Assembly (NCBI GenBank): GCA_020846005.1
Contig: JADLEQ010000014.1
Coordinates: forward strand, 1-32,875
Origin: Polyangiaceae bacterium
GTDB taxonomy: Bacteria > Myxococcota_A > Polyangia > Polyangiales > Polyangiaceae
Direction: 5' to 3'
DNA: 32,875 nucleotides
Position 1 is the stretch's first letter; the number at the start of each line of letters is the position of its first letter. The translations under genes and the position numbers were made by a program. Positions 14,241 through 28,606 of the stretch are shown here, piece by piece. A model generated the notes under the pieces. It ran no database searches, had not been told where the DNA came from, and saw nothing but the letters and a program-made list of their open reading frames with translations.

Positions 14241-15970
14241 CACTCCCACCGGATCCCTTCCACGGGGCGAAGCTGGCTGGCCGCGCGCGCCGGGTAGAGC
14301 GTCGCGAGGGTGGTGATCACCAGCGCCGAGAGCGCGACCAGCGCGTAGTCGGCGGGGTTCACAGCGATGGGTAAGCGGTCCACGTAGTACACGTCCGGAT
14401 CGAGCCGAACGCCGAACCACGACAGGCTGAGCGCCATCACGAGGCCGGTCACGACGCCGAACACCGTGCCGATCGAGCCGATCACGACGCCCTCCAGCAT
14501 GAACACGCGCAGGATCGCGCCGTCGCTCGCGCCGATCGCCTTGAGGATCGCGATCTCCTTGCTCTTCTCCGTGACCATGAGGAGCAGCGTGCAGATGATG
14601 CAGAAGCTCGCCACGATGATGGCGATGCCCAGGATGGCGAACACCACGATCTTCTCCAGCTGGAGCGCACTGAAGAGGTTCTTGTTCAGGGCCTTCCAGT
14701 CGCGGACCCGCAGACCGTGGGCGGCGACGGCCGCGTCGAGCTTCGGGGTCGCCTCGTCGACGCGCTCCACGTCCTCCAGCTTCACGTCGACCCCCGTCAC
14801 GTGGGCGCCGAGATCGAGGAACTCCTGCGCCGTGTCGAGCCTCATGTACGCGTGGCTGGCGTCGTACTCGTACATCCCGCTGTAGAAGATGCCGGCGATG
14901 CGAAACCGCCGCGAGCGCGGCATGACGCCCATCGGCCCGAGATCGCCGAGCGGCGTGACCAGGGTGATCTCGTCGCCGACGTAGACGTGCAGCGTGCGGG
15001 CGAGCTCGCGGCCGACGATCAAGCCCGGGAAGACATCGGGCGGCCGGACGGCGGCGTCCACCGACGAGGCGTCGAGGGAGAAGCCCCGGAGGTCTGGCCC
15101 CTTGAAGTAGAGCTGCCCGTCGGAGGCGATGCCGATCGGGGTCTCCGGCGGGAGCCGCGCGAGCCCGACCTCGTCCTCGAGCCACTCGAGCTTGCCGACC
15201 TCGAGGTTCACGGGGAGGTCGACGACCTGGCCGATGCTCTGCGGGTCCACCCCGCGCACGAGGACGCCCGCGGTGTTGGAGGAGCTCGAGGCCATGGCCT
15301 CCCCCGCGGCGATCGGCGTCGCCGCCCGGACGCCGGGCACGGTGCGCACCGCGTCGAGCAGGTCTCGCCAGCCGTCGAAGCCCCCCGGCTGCTCGGCGTC
15401 GATCTTCACGTGGGCGTTGTTGCCGAGGATCTTGCGCTTCAGATCGGCGCCGAACCCTCCCATGATCGAGACGACCGCGCAGAGCGCGAACGCGCTCACG
15501 CCGACGCCGGCGATGGAAAGGAACGAGATGATGGTGAGGAACCCGCTCTTGCCCGCCCGCACATGGCGCGCCGCCACGAGAGGGACGAATCCGCTCCCCT
15601 CGATCCGATCGAGCACCCGCGGCAGGGAGAGCCAGAGCGAGCCCACCATGAAGCCGATCGCGCCCACCGCCGCGGCGCCGCGCACGAGCTGGTGCCAGAG
15701 CACGAAGTAGCTGCCCCGGAGCTCCGGCAGGCGCCCGCTCCACGTGCCGAACACGACCAGCACGACGAGCGACACCACCGTCCCGCCCACCACGAGGTAC
15801 CGGCGGCGACGCGCCCCGAGCTTGCGGAAGCCGCCCACGACGAGCCAGAGGACGAGCCCGACCGCCACCGCGATCAGGGCGAGCCGTCCGTTCAACCCCA
15901 GCTCAGCCCACAGCGCGGCGAGGGGGGTCGGCGGCTCCTCGAGCAGCCGCGGCTGGGCGGCGAGCGTCAC
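14240..15970 (-). CDS. lolC: LolC/LolE-like ABC permease with N-terminal membrane extension
   Basis: A 576-residue FtsX-family permease, partner of LolD. The canonical LolC/E part starts near residue 130 (PLVAARHVRAGKSGFLTIIS), with a membrane helix at about 145-170, a periplasmic domain, then three C-terminal helices around IVVFAILGIAIIVASFCI, SIGTVFGVVTGLVMAL and ALVALSALVITTLATL, and a final ARAASQLRPVEGIRWE. KSKEIAILKAIGAS is the coupling motif. LolC and LolE are usually about 400 residues; the extra N-terminal 130 hold three further hydrophobic helices (about 29-47, 58-77, 97-116). The GTG start at 15968-15970 overlaps the lysS stop in a GTGA. A single permease gene implies a homodimer rather than a LolC/LolE pair. 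Confidence 0.9.
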   Translation of the reverse strand: MTLAAQPRLLEEPPTPLAALWAELGLNGRLALIAVAVGLVLWLVVGGFRKLGARRRRYLVVGGTVVSLVVLVVFGTWSGRLPELRGSYFVLWHQLVRGAAAVGAIGFMVGSLWLSLPRVLDRIEGSGFVPLVAARHVRAGKSGFLTIISFLSIAGVGVSAFALCAVVSIMGGFGADLKRKILGNNAHVKIDAEQPGGFDGWRDLLDAVRTVPGVRAATPIAAGEAMASSSSNTAGVLVRGVDPQSIGQVVDLPVNLEVGKLEWLEDEVGLARLPPETPIGIASDGQLYFKGPDLRGFSLDASSVDAAVRPPDVFPGLIVGRELARTLHVYVGDEITLVTPLGDLGPMGVMPRSRRFRIAGIFYSGMYEYDASHAYMRLDTAQEFLDLGAHVTGVDVKLEDVERVDEATPKLDAAVAAHGLRVRDWKALNKNLFSALQLEKIVVFAILGIAIIVASFCIICTLLLMVTEKSKEIAILKAIGASDGAILRVFMLEGVVIGSIGTVFGVVTGLVMALSLSWFGVRLDPDVYYVDRLPIAVNPADYALVALSALVITTLATLYPARAASQLRPVEGIRWE

Positions 15971-24930: not shown

Positions 24931-25893
24931 TCAAGGGAGCACGCGGTAGGTGAACGCCACGAAGGGGAGCACGGGGATCGTGTCGCGCGGGTCGAGGATC
25001 CGCCCGAGCGAGACGTCGAGGGCCCAGCTCCGGTAGGGGAAGCGAAAGCCGGGCATCACCGCGATCCCGTGCGCCTGGCCCGCCTCGCGCCCGATCGGCG
25101 TGAGGGTCTCGACCTCGAGCAGGAGCGTCGCCCAGCGCGCGACGTTCCACGTGAGCCCGACCCCTCCGAGCAAGACGGTGACCGGCCCGACGAAGGCGGT
25201 CGTCCCCGCCATCGTCACGCTGGATCGACAGGGCACATCGGCGCAGAGCTGCACCGCGCCGCCCAGACGCCCGAGGAACATGTGCCCCTCCTCCAGCCCG
25301 ACGACCCCGCTGGTCGACACGATCGCGGCGACGCGCACGCGGTCCTCGCGATGCACGACCGTCTTGAGCGACAGATCGAGGAACGCGATCCCGCCATCGA
25401 TGGGCGGGGTCGCGGTGAGCGAGAGCTGCGTCACGTCGCTCACGGCCCACCCCGCCTGGAGGAAGATCAGCTCGTAGCTCGAGAAGGTGAGCGTCCCCTC
25501 GGGGTGGGTGTAGGCCGTCGGGAGGAGGACGACGCGATCCGCGTGCGCGTCCGCCGTGCGCTCGGAGGCGGGCCGGCCGGGCGCGGCGGCGGGCGCTGGC
25601 ACGCGCCGCCTGGCAGGGCGCTCGGCGGCGGCCTGCCCGCTGGGCGGCGTCACGGCGGGCGGCGGCGCGGCAGGCGGCTCAGGCGCCGCCGTGGGCGGCG
25701 CCGTCGAGCCCGCGGGCGCCGGAGGTGTGAACGACGCGGCGGCGGGGGGCGTGAACCCCGGGGCACTCGCGGGCGGGGAGGCGCTCGCCGAGGCCGACGC
25801 CGCCGCGGGCTGTGCCCGAGACCCGCGCGCGGAACCGAGGCCCACGGCCAACACCACACCCGCAAGGAAGCTCGACAGCGGGCTGGCACGCAT
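24931..25893 (-). CDS. Probable outer-membrane beta-barrel protein
   Basis: A 320-residue exported protein. A signal peptide runs to about residue 27 (SARGSRA before QPAA), followed by a Pro/Ala/Ser-rich linker to about 105. The rest is alternating hydrophobic/polar beta strands with short turns, for example SSYELIFLQAGWAVSDVTQL, VTVLLGGVGLTWNVARWATL and the final LPFVAFTYRVLP, consistent with a small barrel. Two cysteines (CADVPC) may form a loop disulfide. No specific family recognised. The ATG at 25891-25893 has GGGA five nt upstream, and a TATCGT -10 candidate lies at 25909-25914 (minus strand). It is divergent from the lipoprotein cassette at 25972, whose products are also exported. Confidence 0.75.
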   Translation of the reverse strand: MRASPLSSFLAGVVLAVGLGSARGSRAQPAAASASASASPPASAPGFTPPAAASFTPPAPAGSTAPPTAAPEPPAAPPPAVTPPSGQAAAERPARRRVPAPAAAPGRPASERTADAHADRVVLLPTAYTHPEGTLTFSSYELIFLQAGWAVSDVTQLSLTATPPIDGGIAFLDLSLKTVVHREDRVRVAAIVSTSGVVGLEEGHMFLGRLGGAVQLCADVPCRSSVTMAGTTAFVGPVTVLLGGVGLTWNVARWATLLLEVETLTPIGREAGQAHGIAVMPGFRFPYRSWALDVSLGRILDPRDTIPVLPFVAFTYRVLP

Positions 25894-25908
25894 CGTGATC
25901 CCACGGGG

Positions 25909-25914
25909 ACGATA
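25909..25914 (-). promoter_or_regulatory. Candidate -10 (TATCGT) for the outer-membrane protein gene
   Basis: TATCGT on the minus strand would start transcription about nine nt before the ATG at 25893. The divergent TACGAT at 25936 serves the opposite cassette. Confidence 0.35.
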
Positions 25915-25935
25915 GCCGCCCATGTACCTCACTGC

Positions 25936-25941
25936 TACGAT
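25936..25941 (+). promoter_or_regulatory. Candidate -10 (TACGAT) of the surface-protein cassette
   Basis: TACGAT fits TAnnnT in one of the few A/T-richer patches of the region. It would give a leader of about 24 nt including GGGG seven nt before the ATG at 25972. Confidence 0.35.
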
Positions 25942-25971
25942 GAATCGGCTCGGTTGCACCGGGGTATCCTG

Positions 25972-26643
25972 ATGGCGCGACACCGGACCCCGTTGCAGCA
26001 CGCGTGCCGAGCGGTGATCCCGCTGGCGATCGTCGCGGCAGGCGCCTGCGGGCGGACGGATCTCGGCCCCTGGGAGCTCGCCGAGCTCGAGCCGAGCGCC
26101 GACGCGGGCACCCTCGGCGAGGACGCCGCCGCCGACGCGACGCTGCCCGTGGCCGACGCGACGCCCGACGCACCCGCCGACGCTCCGAGCCCCGAGGGCG
26201 GCGCGGGGGGCTCCTCCGGGTGCACGCCCGCGCCCGAGGAGTGCAACGGCCTGGACGACGACTGCAACGGCGTGGTGGACGACGGCCTCCCAGCGGAGCC
26301 GTGCCCCGGCGGCGGCGCGCGCTACTGCGTCGCCGGCCGCCTGAGCGAGTGCCCCAAGCGCTGTGAGGTCTGCATCCCCGGCAGCGAGCGCGTGTGTCAG
26401 GTCGCCTACTGCCTGTACTGGGGCGTCCAGACGTGCTCCGCGGATGGCCGCTCGTTCGGCGTCTGCCGCGAGCAGTCCCCGCCCGCGCAGTGCAAGCAGG
26501 CGGCGAAGACGCACGAGCGCTCCGCCGAGCTCGAGCAGTGCTGCATCGACGCGGGCTACTGCTGCCGAGACGAGTACGATCTCGATCGGGACGGCGACAA
26601 GTCGGAGCACCTGGGCGCGTGCGAAGCCGTGACGTGCGAGTGA
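25972..26643 (+). CDS. Cys-rich lipoprotein with MopE-type metal-binding motif
   Basis: A 223-residue exported protein. The leader MARHRTPLQHACRAVIPLAI continues to VAAGAC, where Cys26 is the likely lipid site although the lipobox is not ideal. An Ala/Asp/Pro-rich linker (about 40-80) follows, then a domain with around twenty cysteines. EECNGLDDDCNGVVDDG (about 90-105) is the calcium/metal-binding motif repeated in MopE and many myxobacterial secreted proteins; only one copy occurs here. The C-terminus has further paired cysteines (CCIDAGYCCRDEYDLDRDGD), the last part again acidic and calcium-loop-like. Its stop overlaps the GTG of the next gene, so it heads a coupled three-gene cassette. Confidence 0.83.
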   Translation: MARHRTPLQHACRAVIPLAIVAAGACGRTDLGPWELAELEPSADAGTLGEDAAADATLPVADATPDAPADAPSPEGGAGGSSGCTPAPEECNGLDDDCNGVVDDGLPAEPCPGGGARYCVAGRLSECPKRCEVCIPGSERVCQVAYCLYWGVQTCSADGRSFGVCREQSPPAQCKQAAKTHERSAELEQCCIDAGYCCRDEYDLDRDGDKSEHLGACEAVTCE

Positions 26644-27548
26644 CGCCGGCGCCCCGGTCCCCCCGGGCGGCCCCGCTGCGGGCCCTCGCGCCGCTGGCGG
26701 CGGCGGCGGCGCTGTGCGCCTTCGGCCCGTCGGCGCGCGCCGACGAGTGCGGGCGCCCCGACCTGCTCGAGACGATGCCGCCGGACGGCGCGACCGACGT
26801 GCCCACCGACGCGCGCCTGCAGGCGCGGTACGCGGCGACGGCTGAGTACCTCGGCGAGGAGGTCGTCCTGGAGCACGTGGGCGTCGACGAGCGCGCGGTC
26901 GATCCGATCTTCGACGTGAACGAGGGCCTGCTCGTCGTGAGTCCCCCGGAGGCGCTCGTCCCCGGGGACGAGTACGTGATCCGCTGGCCCCGCCTCCGCG
27001 GCCTGGGGACGGCGACGCTCGGGCGAAGCGCGGACGTGCGCTTCGTCGCCGGGGCGCTCGCCGACGCGACGGCGCCCGAGTTCGCGGGGCTCAGCTCGGT
27101 GGAGTGGGATCTCGACCGCAGCCGCGACGAGTGCACGGACTCGCTCCAGGCGCGCTACGTGTTCGATCTCGGGCTGTCGCCGGCCTCCGACGACGGAGGC
27201 CGAGGCTCGCTGACGCTCGTGGTGTTCCAGACCCGGGGCCCCGGGATCACCGCACCGGAGCCGTTCGCCGTGCGCCGCTTCCCGGCGCCGGGCAAGCCGC
27301 TGCGCGTCGAGCGCACGGAGCGGGACGCGATCGGTGAGGTGTGCTTCGCGGCGGTCGCCCGCGACCTCGTGGGGCGGACGAGCGCGAGCGGCTCCGTGGA
27401 GCGGTGCACGCGGACCGTCCGCCCGCCCTTCTTCGAGGGCTGCTCGGCGGCGCCGCGCGGCCCCCGCCCCGGCGCGCTCGTCTCGCTCGTGCTAGCCGGC
27501 GTGGCTGCGCTCTCGGTCGGTCGGCGCAGGAGCCGCGCGGCCCGATGA
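26640..27548 (+). CDS. Ig-like surface protein with MYXO-CTERM-like sorting tail
   Basis: A 302-residue secreted protein. The signal peptide ends at about residue 34 (PSARA before DECG). A bacterial Ig-like domain follows: PPDGATDVPTDARLQARYAA and GLLVVSPPEALVPGDEYVIR are its usual first and middle strands. A second beta-rich domain spans about 140-255. The C-terminus is a tripartite signal: Cys268 in FFEGCSAAPRG, a hydrophobic stretch (about 279-294) and the basic tail GRRRSRAAR. This matches the MYXO-CTERM pattern that myxosortase processes for surface display; it lacks the second Cys often seen. The GTG start overlaps the previous stop (GTGA) and its own stop overlaps the next ATG (ATGA), so all three genes are coupled. 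Confidence 0.82.
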   Translation: MTPAPRSPRAAPLRALAPLAAAAALCAFGPSARADECGRPDLLETMPPDGATDVPTDARLQARYAATAEYLGEEVVLEHVGVDERAVDPIFDVNEGLLVVSPPEALVPGDEYVIRWPRLRGLGTATLGRSADVRFVAGALADATAPEFAGLSSVEWDLDRSRDECTDSLQARYVFDLGLSPASDDGGRGSLTLVVFQTRGPGITAPEPFAVRRFPAPGKPLRVERTERDAIGEVCFAAVARDLVGRTSASGSVERCTRTVRPPFFEGCSAAPRGPRPGALVSLVLAGVAALSVGRRRSRAAR

Positions 27549-28606
27549 GCGCGAACGCGCGGCGCTGCCGCTCCTTCGTCGGCCTCTCGCTCGCCCTCGC
27601 GGCACGGGCCGCGGCGGCGCCCCCCGCGCCCGCCGCGCCACCGCCCGGCGCTCCGTCGCCCGGCGGTCCGTCGCCCGCCGCTCCGTCGCCCGCCGCTCCG
27701 TCGCCCACCGCGACGGCTCCCGCCCCGCACGCTCGCGCGCCCAACGCGCTCGCGGTCCTCGACACGCACGCCTTCGGCGTAGACGCCGCGCTCGCGGTGC
27801 TGGTCACGCGGGAGGCGCTCCGCGTCGCCGAGGCACGCGGCTGGGCTCCCCTCCCCGCCGCCGAGGCCCGCCGCGTCCTGGGCCTCCGCCGCGCCCCCGG
27901 GCCGCTCACGCAGCCGGAGGTGCGGGATCTCACGCGAGCCGCCGGCGTCGGGCACGGGCTCGTGCTCTCCCTCTACCCCTCACCGCCAGGGTACCGTGTG
28001 GTGGCGCAGGTGGCCGTCGGCCCGTACGTCACGGAGCGCGCGCTCGAGGTCGAGCCCGCGCGGGTGGGCGAGGCCGTGGAGGAGCTGCTCACGGCGCTGC
28101 TGCCGCTCGCGCCGCCCCCCCCGGCTGAGCGCCCTCGCGCGTCCGGCGCCCGGTCGGGCTCCGCCGACTCGCCCGCCGGCCCGCCGGAGCTCGTCCCCTG
28201 GCGCCTGGCGCTGCGGACGGAGGCGGCCCCGGGGCTCGGCGCGTCGCGCTTCTACAACCACTTCCTCGGCGCGCGGCTCGATCAGCGCTTCGCCGAGCGC
28301 ATCACCTTCGGCCTCGAGCTCGCGTACGTGAACCTCCGCGGGAAGGAGGGCCGCGCGCACAACGTCGCGGGGCTCGCGCAGCTCGAGCACGAGCTCTCGC
28401 TCGGCGCTGGCTGGGGCCTCCCGCTGCGCCTCGGGCTCGGGTACCTGCCCCGCAACGGCCCGCTCCTCGAGCTGGCGGCCGGCGCCCGGGTCGCCGTGGG
28501 AGACGCCACGTGGCTCGCGTTCGACGTGGGTCCCACGGTGTGGAACGCGAAGGACCAGCCGCTCGCATCGCTCGACCTCGGCCTCGAGCTATCGTTCGAC
28601 CTCTGA
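27545..28606 (+). CDS. Exported protein with C-terminal barrel-like region
   Basis: A 353-residue protein starting at the ATG that overlaps the previous stop (ATGA). A signal peptide of about 25 residues is followed by a Pro/Ala/Ser linker built from five-residue repeats. The domain at about 65-190 (NALAVLDTHAFGVDAALAVL, EARRVLGLRR, GLVLSLYPSPPGYRVVAQVA) has alpha/beta character like the TolB-N/lipoprotein-type sensor fold, inferred only loosely. The last 120 residues look like antiparallel barrel strands with aromatic girdles (ITFGLELAYVNLRG, LPLRLGLGYLPRNG, LASLDLGLELSFDL). The family is not recognised. As the last gene of the cassette it may provide the outer-membrane anchor for the two preceding surface proteins. 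Confidence 0.75.
   Translation: MSANARRCRSFVGLSLALAARAAAAPPAPAAPPPGAPSPGGPSPAAPSPAAPSPTATAPAPHARAPNALAVLDTHAFGVDAALAVLVTREALRVAEARGWAPLPAAEARRVLGLRRAPGPLTQPEVRDLTRAAGVGHGLVLSLYPSPPGYRVVAQVAVGPYVTERALEVEPARVGEAVEELLTALLPLAPPPPAERPRASGARSGSADSPAGPPELVPWRLALRTEAAPGLGASRFYNHFLGARLDQRFAERITFGLELAYVNLRGKEGRAHNVAGLAQLEHELSLGAGWGLPLRLGLGYLPRNGPLLELAAGARVAVGDATWLAFDVGPTVWNAKDQPLASLDLGLELSFDL
27650..27709 (+). repeat. Four 15-bp tandem repeats in a coding linker
   Basis: Four near-identical 15-bp units (pattern GCTCCGTCGCCCGCC) in phase encode the repeated pentapeptide Ala/Gly-Pro-Ser-Pro-Ala/Gly/Thr. Copies differ by one or two bases. In-frame slippage here would change the linker length without breaking the gene. 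Confidence 0.85.

Follow-up and report, generated by a model that had tools for sequence, protein, structure and literature searches.

Organization of the locus

The window, by which we mean the whole stretch of DNA analysed here (32,875 nucleotides, the entire contig G000:C14 of the genome G000), contains three overlapping genes for predicted exported proteins, termed g1, g2 and g3, and a fourth one, g4, that faces away from them (Table 1). The question raised by this locus is whether proteins that appear to be anchored to the cell surface in different ways are parts of one system, and what such a system would do. An earlier note on the sequence had claimed that the three genes overlap by GTGA at g1/g2 and by ATGA at g2/g3, and that g4 diverges from them across a gap of 78 nt; the coordinates agree exactly with both statements. 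Four-base gene overlaps on their own are ordinary in bacteria, and the window itself contains another overlap, between a gene ending at 15970 and a gene starting at 15967. On one side the cassette is flanked by what we take to be a HAD-phosphatase-like gene, and on the other side by a gene presumably encoding a membrane protein, followed by a presumed PEPCK-like gene.

Table 1. Coordinates of the cassette and its parts in the window, with the second locus of the same genome
Feature	Position	Strand	Remarks
g4 (P0004, 320 aa)	24931..25893	-	Predicted signal peptide, Pro-rich linker and 12-strand outer-membrane barrel of ~185 residues
Divergent intergenic stretch	25894..25971	.	78 nt, from g4 ATG to g1 ATG
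g1 (P0001, 223 aa)	25972..26643	+	Lipoprotein; lipobox ending GAC, then GRTDL
MopE-type motif of g1, CNGLDDDCNGVVDD	26230..26283	+	Pfam PF11617, E 3e-4, 21.4 bits (cut-off 27)
Cys-rich C-terminal module of g1	26302..26640	+	Homologue of the C-terminal part of lipoprotein fam6
g2 (P0002, 302 aa)	26640..27548	+	Exported, MYXO-CTERM-like tail
MYXO-CTERM-like tail of g2	27438..27533	+	Invariant Cys268, hydrophobic stretch, Arg cluster
g3 (P0003, 353 aa)	27545..28606	+	Predicted signal peptide, Pro-rich linker, TolB-N-like domain and 8-strand barrel
TolB-N-like alpha/beta domain of g3 (residues ~66-186)	27740..28102	+	AlphaFold2 model; Foldseek TolB 7mx5, E 3.1e-5
8-strand barrel of g3 (residues 218-352)	28196..28600	+	AlphaFold2 model; blocks mostly >90 pLDDT
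Consecutive genes fam6, A and B	G000:C28, ~107735-111687		Second locus in the window's genome

Judged from this layout, the divergent gap must hold the promoters for both g4 and g1. Inspection by eye revealed a -10-like element facing g1, TGCTACGAT, and a similar element, TGCTACxTT, in G014, G249, G250 and G245; among the gaps of 12 genomes compared by eye, this TGCTAC-type element, found in some of them, was the only common motif detected. In five loci (L096, L094, L095, L055 and L053) we also noticed by eye a CACGTnGyGTTCCA-like stretch near the start of g1, upstream of the lipobox, which is absent from the window and could be either a regulatory site or part of the N-terminal coding sequence.

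Conservation of the cassette

In a first sample of 59 relatives (37 from the window's own family, f1, and 22 from other families of the same order), g1 (E <= 1e-50) and g2 (E <= 1e-33) were found in the same five genomes (G000, G007, G008, G014 and G039), the E-value tiers called strong in both samples having been picked after the lists had been seen. g3 was found in 19 of these 59 genomes and the barrel part of g4 in six. Matches to g1 at E <= 1e-3 occur in 37 of the 59 genomes overall, and beyond the strong ones they mostly correspond to the short MopE motif. Within f1, all four genes are present in the same four genomes and strongly in no other (a weak g2 match in G010 has an E-value of 6e-4). 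g3 alone is common, occurring in 15 of the 22 same-order genomes outside f1; these include G039, with g1-g2 on a different contig.

A sample of 317 genomes of the class, from which cassette regions were fetched and then scanned with profiles, yielded strong matches to the Cys module of g1 (E <= 6.5e-47) in 14 genomes and weak ones in three. Strong homologues of g2 (E <= 6.6e-62) are present in exactly the same 14 genomes, with weak matches in 39 more. A phylum-wide search of 377 genomes revealed no g2 outside the class: all eight genomes with a match at E <= 1e-20 were carriers already known. The earlier note had named separate orthologues without conserved order as the outcome that would speak against a unit; instead, g1 and g2 are adjacent in all 14 genomes, g4 is divergent in 12 of them (it is not near g1-g2 in G039 and G259), and g3 lies downstream in 11 of the 12 genomes in which its position can be assessed (the contigs of G287 and G069 end too early, and the one exception is G039). 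Genes that flank the cassette differ from genus to genus, and its distribution is patchy over three families (f1, f4 and f15). In G079 and G077 it lies inside or beside what we take to be a cell-division/murein cluster, with FtsZ-, FtsA-, MurC- and MurG-like frames (L097 34-16413; L098 1-5209). The arrangement is more than chance, because it is conserved across genera and not because of the four-nucleotide overlaps. A search of the open-access literature found no paper on this cassette.

Cassette proteins g2, g3 and g4

Scans of domain libraries found no curated domain above cut-off in g2, g3 or g4, and for g3 and g4 the Pfam and NCBIfam scans gave nothing meaningful. The description of g2 as an "Ig-like" protein found no support in Pfam or NCBIfam, and the accompanying MYXO-CTERM label holds in part. 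MYXO-CTERM proteins, according to a passage in PMC11980579, are sorted by myxosortase and are characterized by an invariant Cys, a hydrophobic helix and an Arg-rich tail. The tail of g2 resembles the proteins described in that passage in all three elements, and its Cys268 and Arg297 are invariant in a 14-row alignment of orthologues (14/14). In contrast to MYXO-CTERM proteins, g2 has a single Cys and no GCGC signature, and its TIGR03901 score stays below the curated NCBIfam cut-off (14.3 vs 20 bits), the result being the same for all three of the 14 members scanned.

AlphaFold2 models support the suggestion that g3 and g4 are barrels, with 8 and 12 strands, respectively. The model of g3 (mean pLDDT 84.8) comprises an alpha/beta domain and then exactly eight strands, and its Foldseek matches include NspA (1p4t), OmpA (1qjp), OprF (4rlc) and TolB (7mx5). 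The model of g4 (mean pLDDT 71.9, which is moderate) has 12 strands at residues 135-318, and its best match in the PDB is KdgM (4fqe; TM 0.75 normalised on the target). When normalised by the query, the TM scores for the two models fall to 0.2-0.4, as the matches do not extend to the linkers and the second domain. Both proteins are candidate outer-membrane beta-barrels by strand count and Foldseek matches, with signal peptides read by eye and moderate model confidence for g4. The predicted folds are those of the 8-strand barrels of OmpA and NspA, the 12-strand porins of the KdgM type and the N-domain of TolB, although sequence identity to these proteins is ~10%. No entry among the Foldseek matches listed combines a TolB-N-like domain and a small barrel in one chain. 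In g3 from f15 the TolB-N-like domain is unmatched, as the profile matches begin at model position 150 or later; these copies are barrel only by profile, and therefore the barrel is the constant part of g3.

The gene pair A-B

Eight of the 14 cassettes have two further genes, the pair A-B, in the space between g2 and g3 (A alone in the case of G287). A encodes a lipoprotein rich in Cys, and B encodes a multiheme c-type cytochrome with 8-9 hemes. The eight cassettes are those of G007, G008, G079, G077, G259, G067, G069 (the contig ends in B) and G287 (the contig ends inside A). The six cassettes without A-B inside (G000, G014, G249, G250, G245 and G039) come from genomes that all have A-B elsewhere. 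The following gene has a possible start with a four-nucleotide overlap at 5 of 14 junctions between g1 and g2 (with other short overlaps at 8 further ones), at 8 of 13 between g2 and the next gene, at all five between A and B, and at five of six between B and g3; the gene after g2, whether A or g3, tends to start in the stop codon of g2. In G067 and G069 A and B form one open frame, and a fusion of 829 aa is encoded by L101:5287-7776 in genus g88. Such naturally occurring fusions hint that the two proteins are in contact.

Complete copies of B contain 6-8 CxxCH motifs and 1-3 longer CX3-4CH motifs (four and two, respectively, in the truncated copy of G312). Cytochrome_C7 and Cytochrom_c3_2 match above cut-off in G007, G008 and the window genome's own copy, so B has both the several CxxCH motifs and the cytochrome domain that mark a multiheme c-type cytochrome. 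A simple script detected a lipobox in most copies of A and B, and none for B of G079 and G245, for fused B and for some others. B also shows weak similarity, below the cut-offs, to the models of cytochrome c554 and NrfB. Residues 296-411 of B (L130:9221-11188) match the C-terminal part of NF041198 (UshA-like (seleno)protein) with an E-value of 2e-10, likewise below cut-off.

The lipoproteins g1 and fam6

The label of g1 as a MopE-motif protein needs qualification: the motif is present, but its score misses the gathering cut-off of the MopE copper-binding family PF11617 (Table 1). A copper system built on MopE alone was dropped from consideration, the shared sequence being too short. The lipobox was detected by the simple script in g1 of 13 of the 14 cassette genomes, the exception being G287. 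The relationship between the Cys module of g1 and the C-terminus of fam6, a lipoprotein encoded near A-B, was identified by hhalign (A6 against A11, probability 97.3, E 2.3e-11) and by reciprocal profile matches in all 14 g1. fam6 is a MopE-type lipoprotein with scores above both cut-offs (PF11617 34.2 bits, NF033662 55.4 bits), and the genome of the window encodes it at L130:7236-8441 (G000:C28), in addition to g1. This copy contains several acidic double-disulfide repeats, in addition to the module common to g1. fam6 is present beside A-B in 10 of 12 unlinked loci (L130-L141), with the copies of G011 and G132 on the opposite strand; the flanks that were fetched around A-B of G245 and G039 gave no match to fam6. 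Weak matches to g1 (~1e-9 to 1e-10) were also obtained in G060-G062. In G060 and G061, the two of these that were fetched, the matches belong to proteins of the fam6 type whose surroundings lack cassette genes, and they were rejected as cassettes.

Co-inheritance of A-B and the cassette

B (E <= 5.2e-92) was found in 19 of the 317 genomes, 13 of which are among the 14 with g1; the only g1 genome without a match to B is G287, cut at the contig end. B was scored on three candidates per genome, so second copies may be missed. At the genus level, nine genera have both g1 and B, 10 have g1 and 14 have B, out of 151 (Fisher p 2.2e-10, a value that ignores relatedness). G000 and G245 have both g1 and B, with the loci on different contigs, and neither g1 nor B was found at the thresholds used in G001 (same genus as G000) and G022 (same genus as G245). 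Strong A and B without g1 occur in six genomes (G247, G011, G132, G133, G053 and G312), which indicates that A-B can do without the cassette.

In a tree of B (21 rows, one row per genome label, G133 left out), a single clade (92/95) unites the unlinked copies from families f1, f3, f4 and f25, with the linked copies outside and the remote unlinked rows G060, G311 and G044 standing apart. This separation suggests that linked and unlinked B may be two subfamilies with different partners. The copies of g3 from cassettes form a clade (95/97), G259 excepted, and taken with the tree of B this implies that the join or split of A-B and the cassette is old.

A proposed joint surface system and its alternatives

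We predict that the four window genes and A-B probably make up one multi-protein system of the outer membrane and surface, with B and its partner A as the redox centre. That a surface/outer-membrane unit is kept together appears very likely, and we favour the view that B takes part in its work. An alternative, which we regard as unlikely, is that the cassette is a separate surface unit for adhesion, envelope integrity or uptake via the KdgM-like barrel, and that a rearrangement in a single lineage brought A-B, a cytochrome module in its own right, into the position between g2 and g3. Such a unit would agree with the KdgM porin as the best fold match of g4, with the separate grouping of linked and unlinked B, and with the six genomes that have strong A-B without g1, where the pair usually brings its own fam6. 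However, every one of the six cassettes without internal A-B has A-B elsewhere in the genome, presence and absence go together within genera, and the Cys module is common to g1 and fam6. Quite unlikely, in our opinion, is another end use of the same cassette, in which B would be an enzyme at the outer membrane (e.g. a reductase of small oxyanions), g3 and g4 would admit its substrate, and no electron would pass to the outside. The similarities of B to cytochrome c554, NrfB and the C-terminus of UshA-like NF041198 point in this direction, as does the lack of a large porin near B, but all those matches are below the family cut-offs and no catalytic heme motif was identified in B. Co-inheritance might also stem from a common habitat and from envelope islands being passed on horizontally, with no joint function, the order being kept only by the shared promoter region and overlapping starts. 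This would fit the patchy distribution over f1, f4 and f15, the differing flanks and the copies beside cell-division genes, but is distinctly improbable given that loci lying on separate contigs are retained or lost jointly and that two genomes have A fused to B.

Returning to the joint system, the division of labour proposed in the earlier note, with one protein lipid-anchored, one sorted to the surface and one forming a barrel, fits the sequences and models as far as it goes, but it is incomplete in that it misses A and B. In the extended scheme the outer membrane would contain g3 and g4 as barrels, the lipoproteins with disulfide-rich or heme-bearing domains would be g1, A and B, and g2, by virtue of its tail, might be lipidated and exported to the surface by type II secretion. 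Relatives encode the six components as one divergent cassette, with g4 facing away from g1-g2-A-B-g3. In the lineage of the window A-B occupies a separate locus (G000:C28), accompanied there by a MopE-type lipoprotein of its own, fam6; hence the window shows the split version, and is probably one half of a split, co-inherited and redox-active surface system. The likeliest job would be surface redox chemistry, with electrons exchanged with a partner located at the outer membrane or outside, and g1 or fam6 may dock B. That the system serves to transfer electrons to the outside is a tentative proposal. The sequences and models provide the gene order, co-occurrence, heme motifs, lipoboxes and predicted barrels; one physical complex, its surface orientation, and the direction and partner of electron flow are inferred. 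In its most specific form, which we consider improbable, the proposal describes a new kind of outer-membrane electron system of Polyangiia, in which B would be held by disulfide-rich lipoproteins (A and g1 or fam6) and the myxosortase-type g2 on the small barrels g3 and g4, would pass electrons across or along the outer membrane with no cytochrome-filled porin, and could operate whether the genes form a single cassette or lie at two unlinked loci.

Many surface proteins of Myxococcota have no known role. If the joint system exists, a testable joint role and a handle, the heme, would be gained for six gene families, of which five match no curated domain above cut-off. It would unite a MYXO-CTERM-like protein with MopE-type lipoproteins and a multiheme cytochrome in one envelope system, and would provide a naturally occurring example of a divided operon, both halves of which are still co-inherited.

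Comparison with known surface cytochrome systems

The cassette with A-B resembles porin-cytochrome conduits of the MtrCAB type in that a predicted outer-membrane barrel and a predicted multiheme lipoprotein are encoded in one operon, and B shows a weak match to the MtrC/MtrF domain (30.8 bits vs a cut-off of 30 in G008, and 28.4 in G007). Heme motifs combined with a lipobox in most copies make B a candidate surface multiheme lipoprotein. Unlike MtrC, B scores far below the cut-off of the OmcA/MtrC model, and unlike the MtrCAB type, the cassette has barrels of 8 and 12 strands in the models. Barrels of this size are too narrow in comparison with the 26-strand MtrB kind. No second gene with at least three CxxCH motifs, which could encode a periplasmic multiheme partner, was found besides B in any cassette locus scanned. 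With neither a large cytochrome-enclosing porin nor a periplasmic cytochrome gene alongside, a conduit of the MtrCAB type was rejected.

A parallel may be drawn with Methylococcus capsulatus, for which PMC4831470 describes the surface protein MopE together with multiheme c-type cytochromes at the cell surface; one of the cytochrome operons includes a gene for an outer-membrane barrel. The system proposed here resembles what is described there in having a MopE-type protein alongside a multiheme c-type cytochrome and a barrel gene, but g1 shares with MopE of M. capsulatus only the 18-residue motif, below the cut-off. Within Myxococcota, a passage in PMC11495043 reports extracellular cytochromes in Anaeromyxobacteraceae. 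The comparison suggests that the cassette and A-B constitute a surface multiheme-cytochrome system distinct from the known porin-cytochrome conduits.
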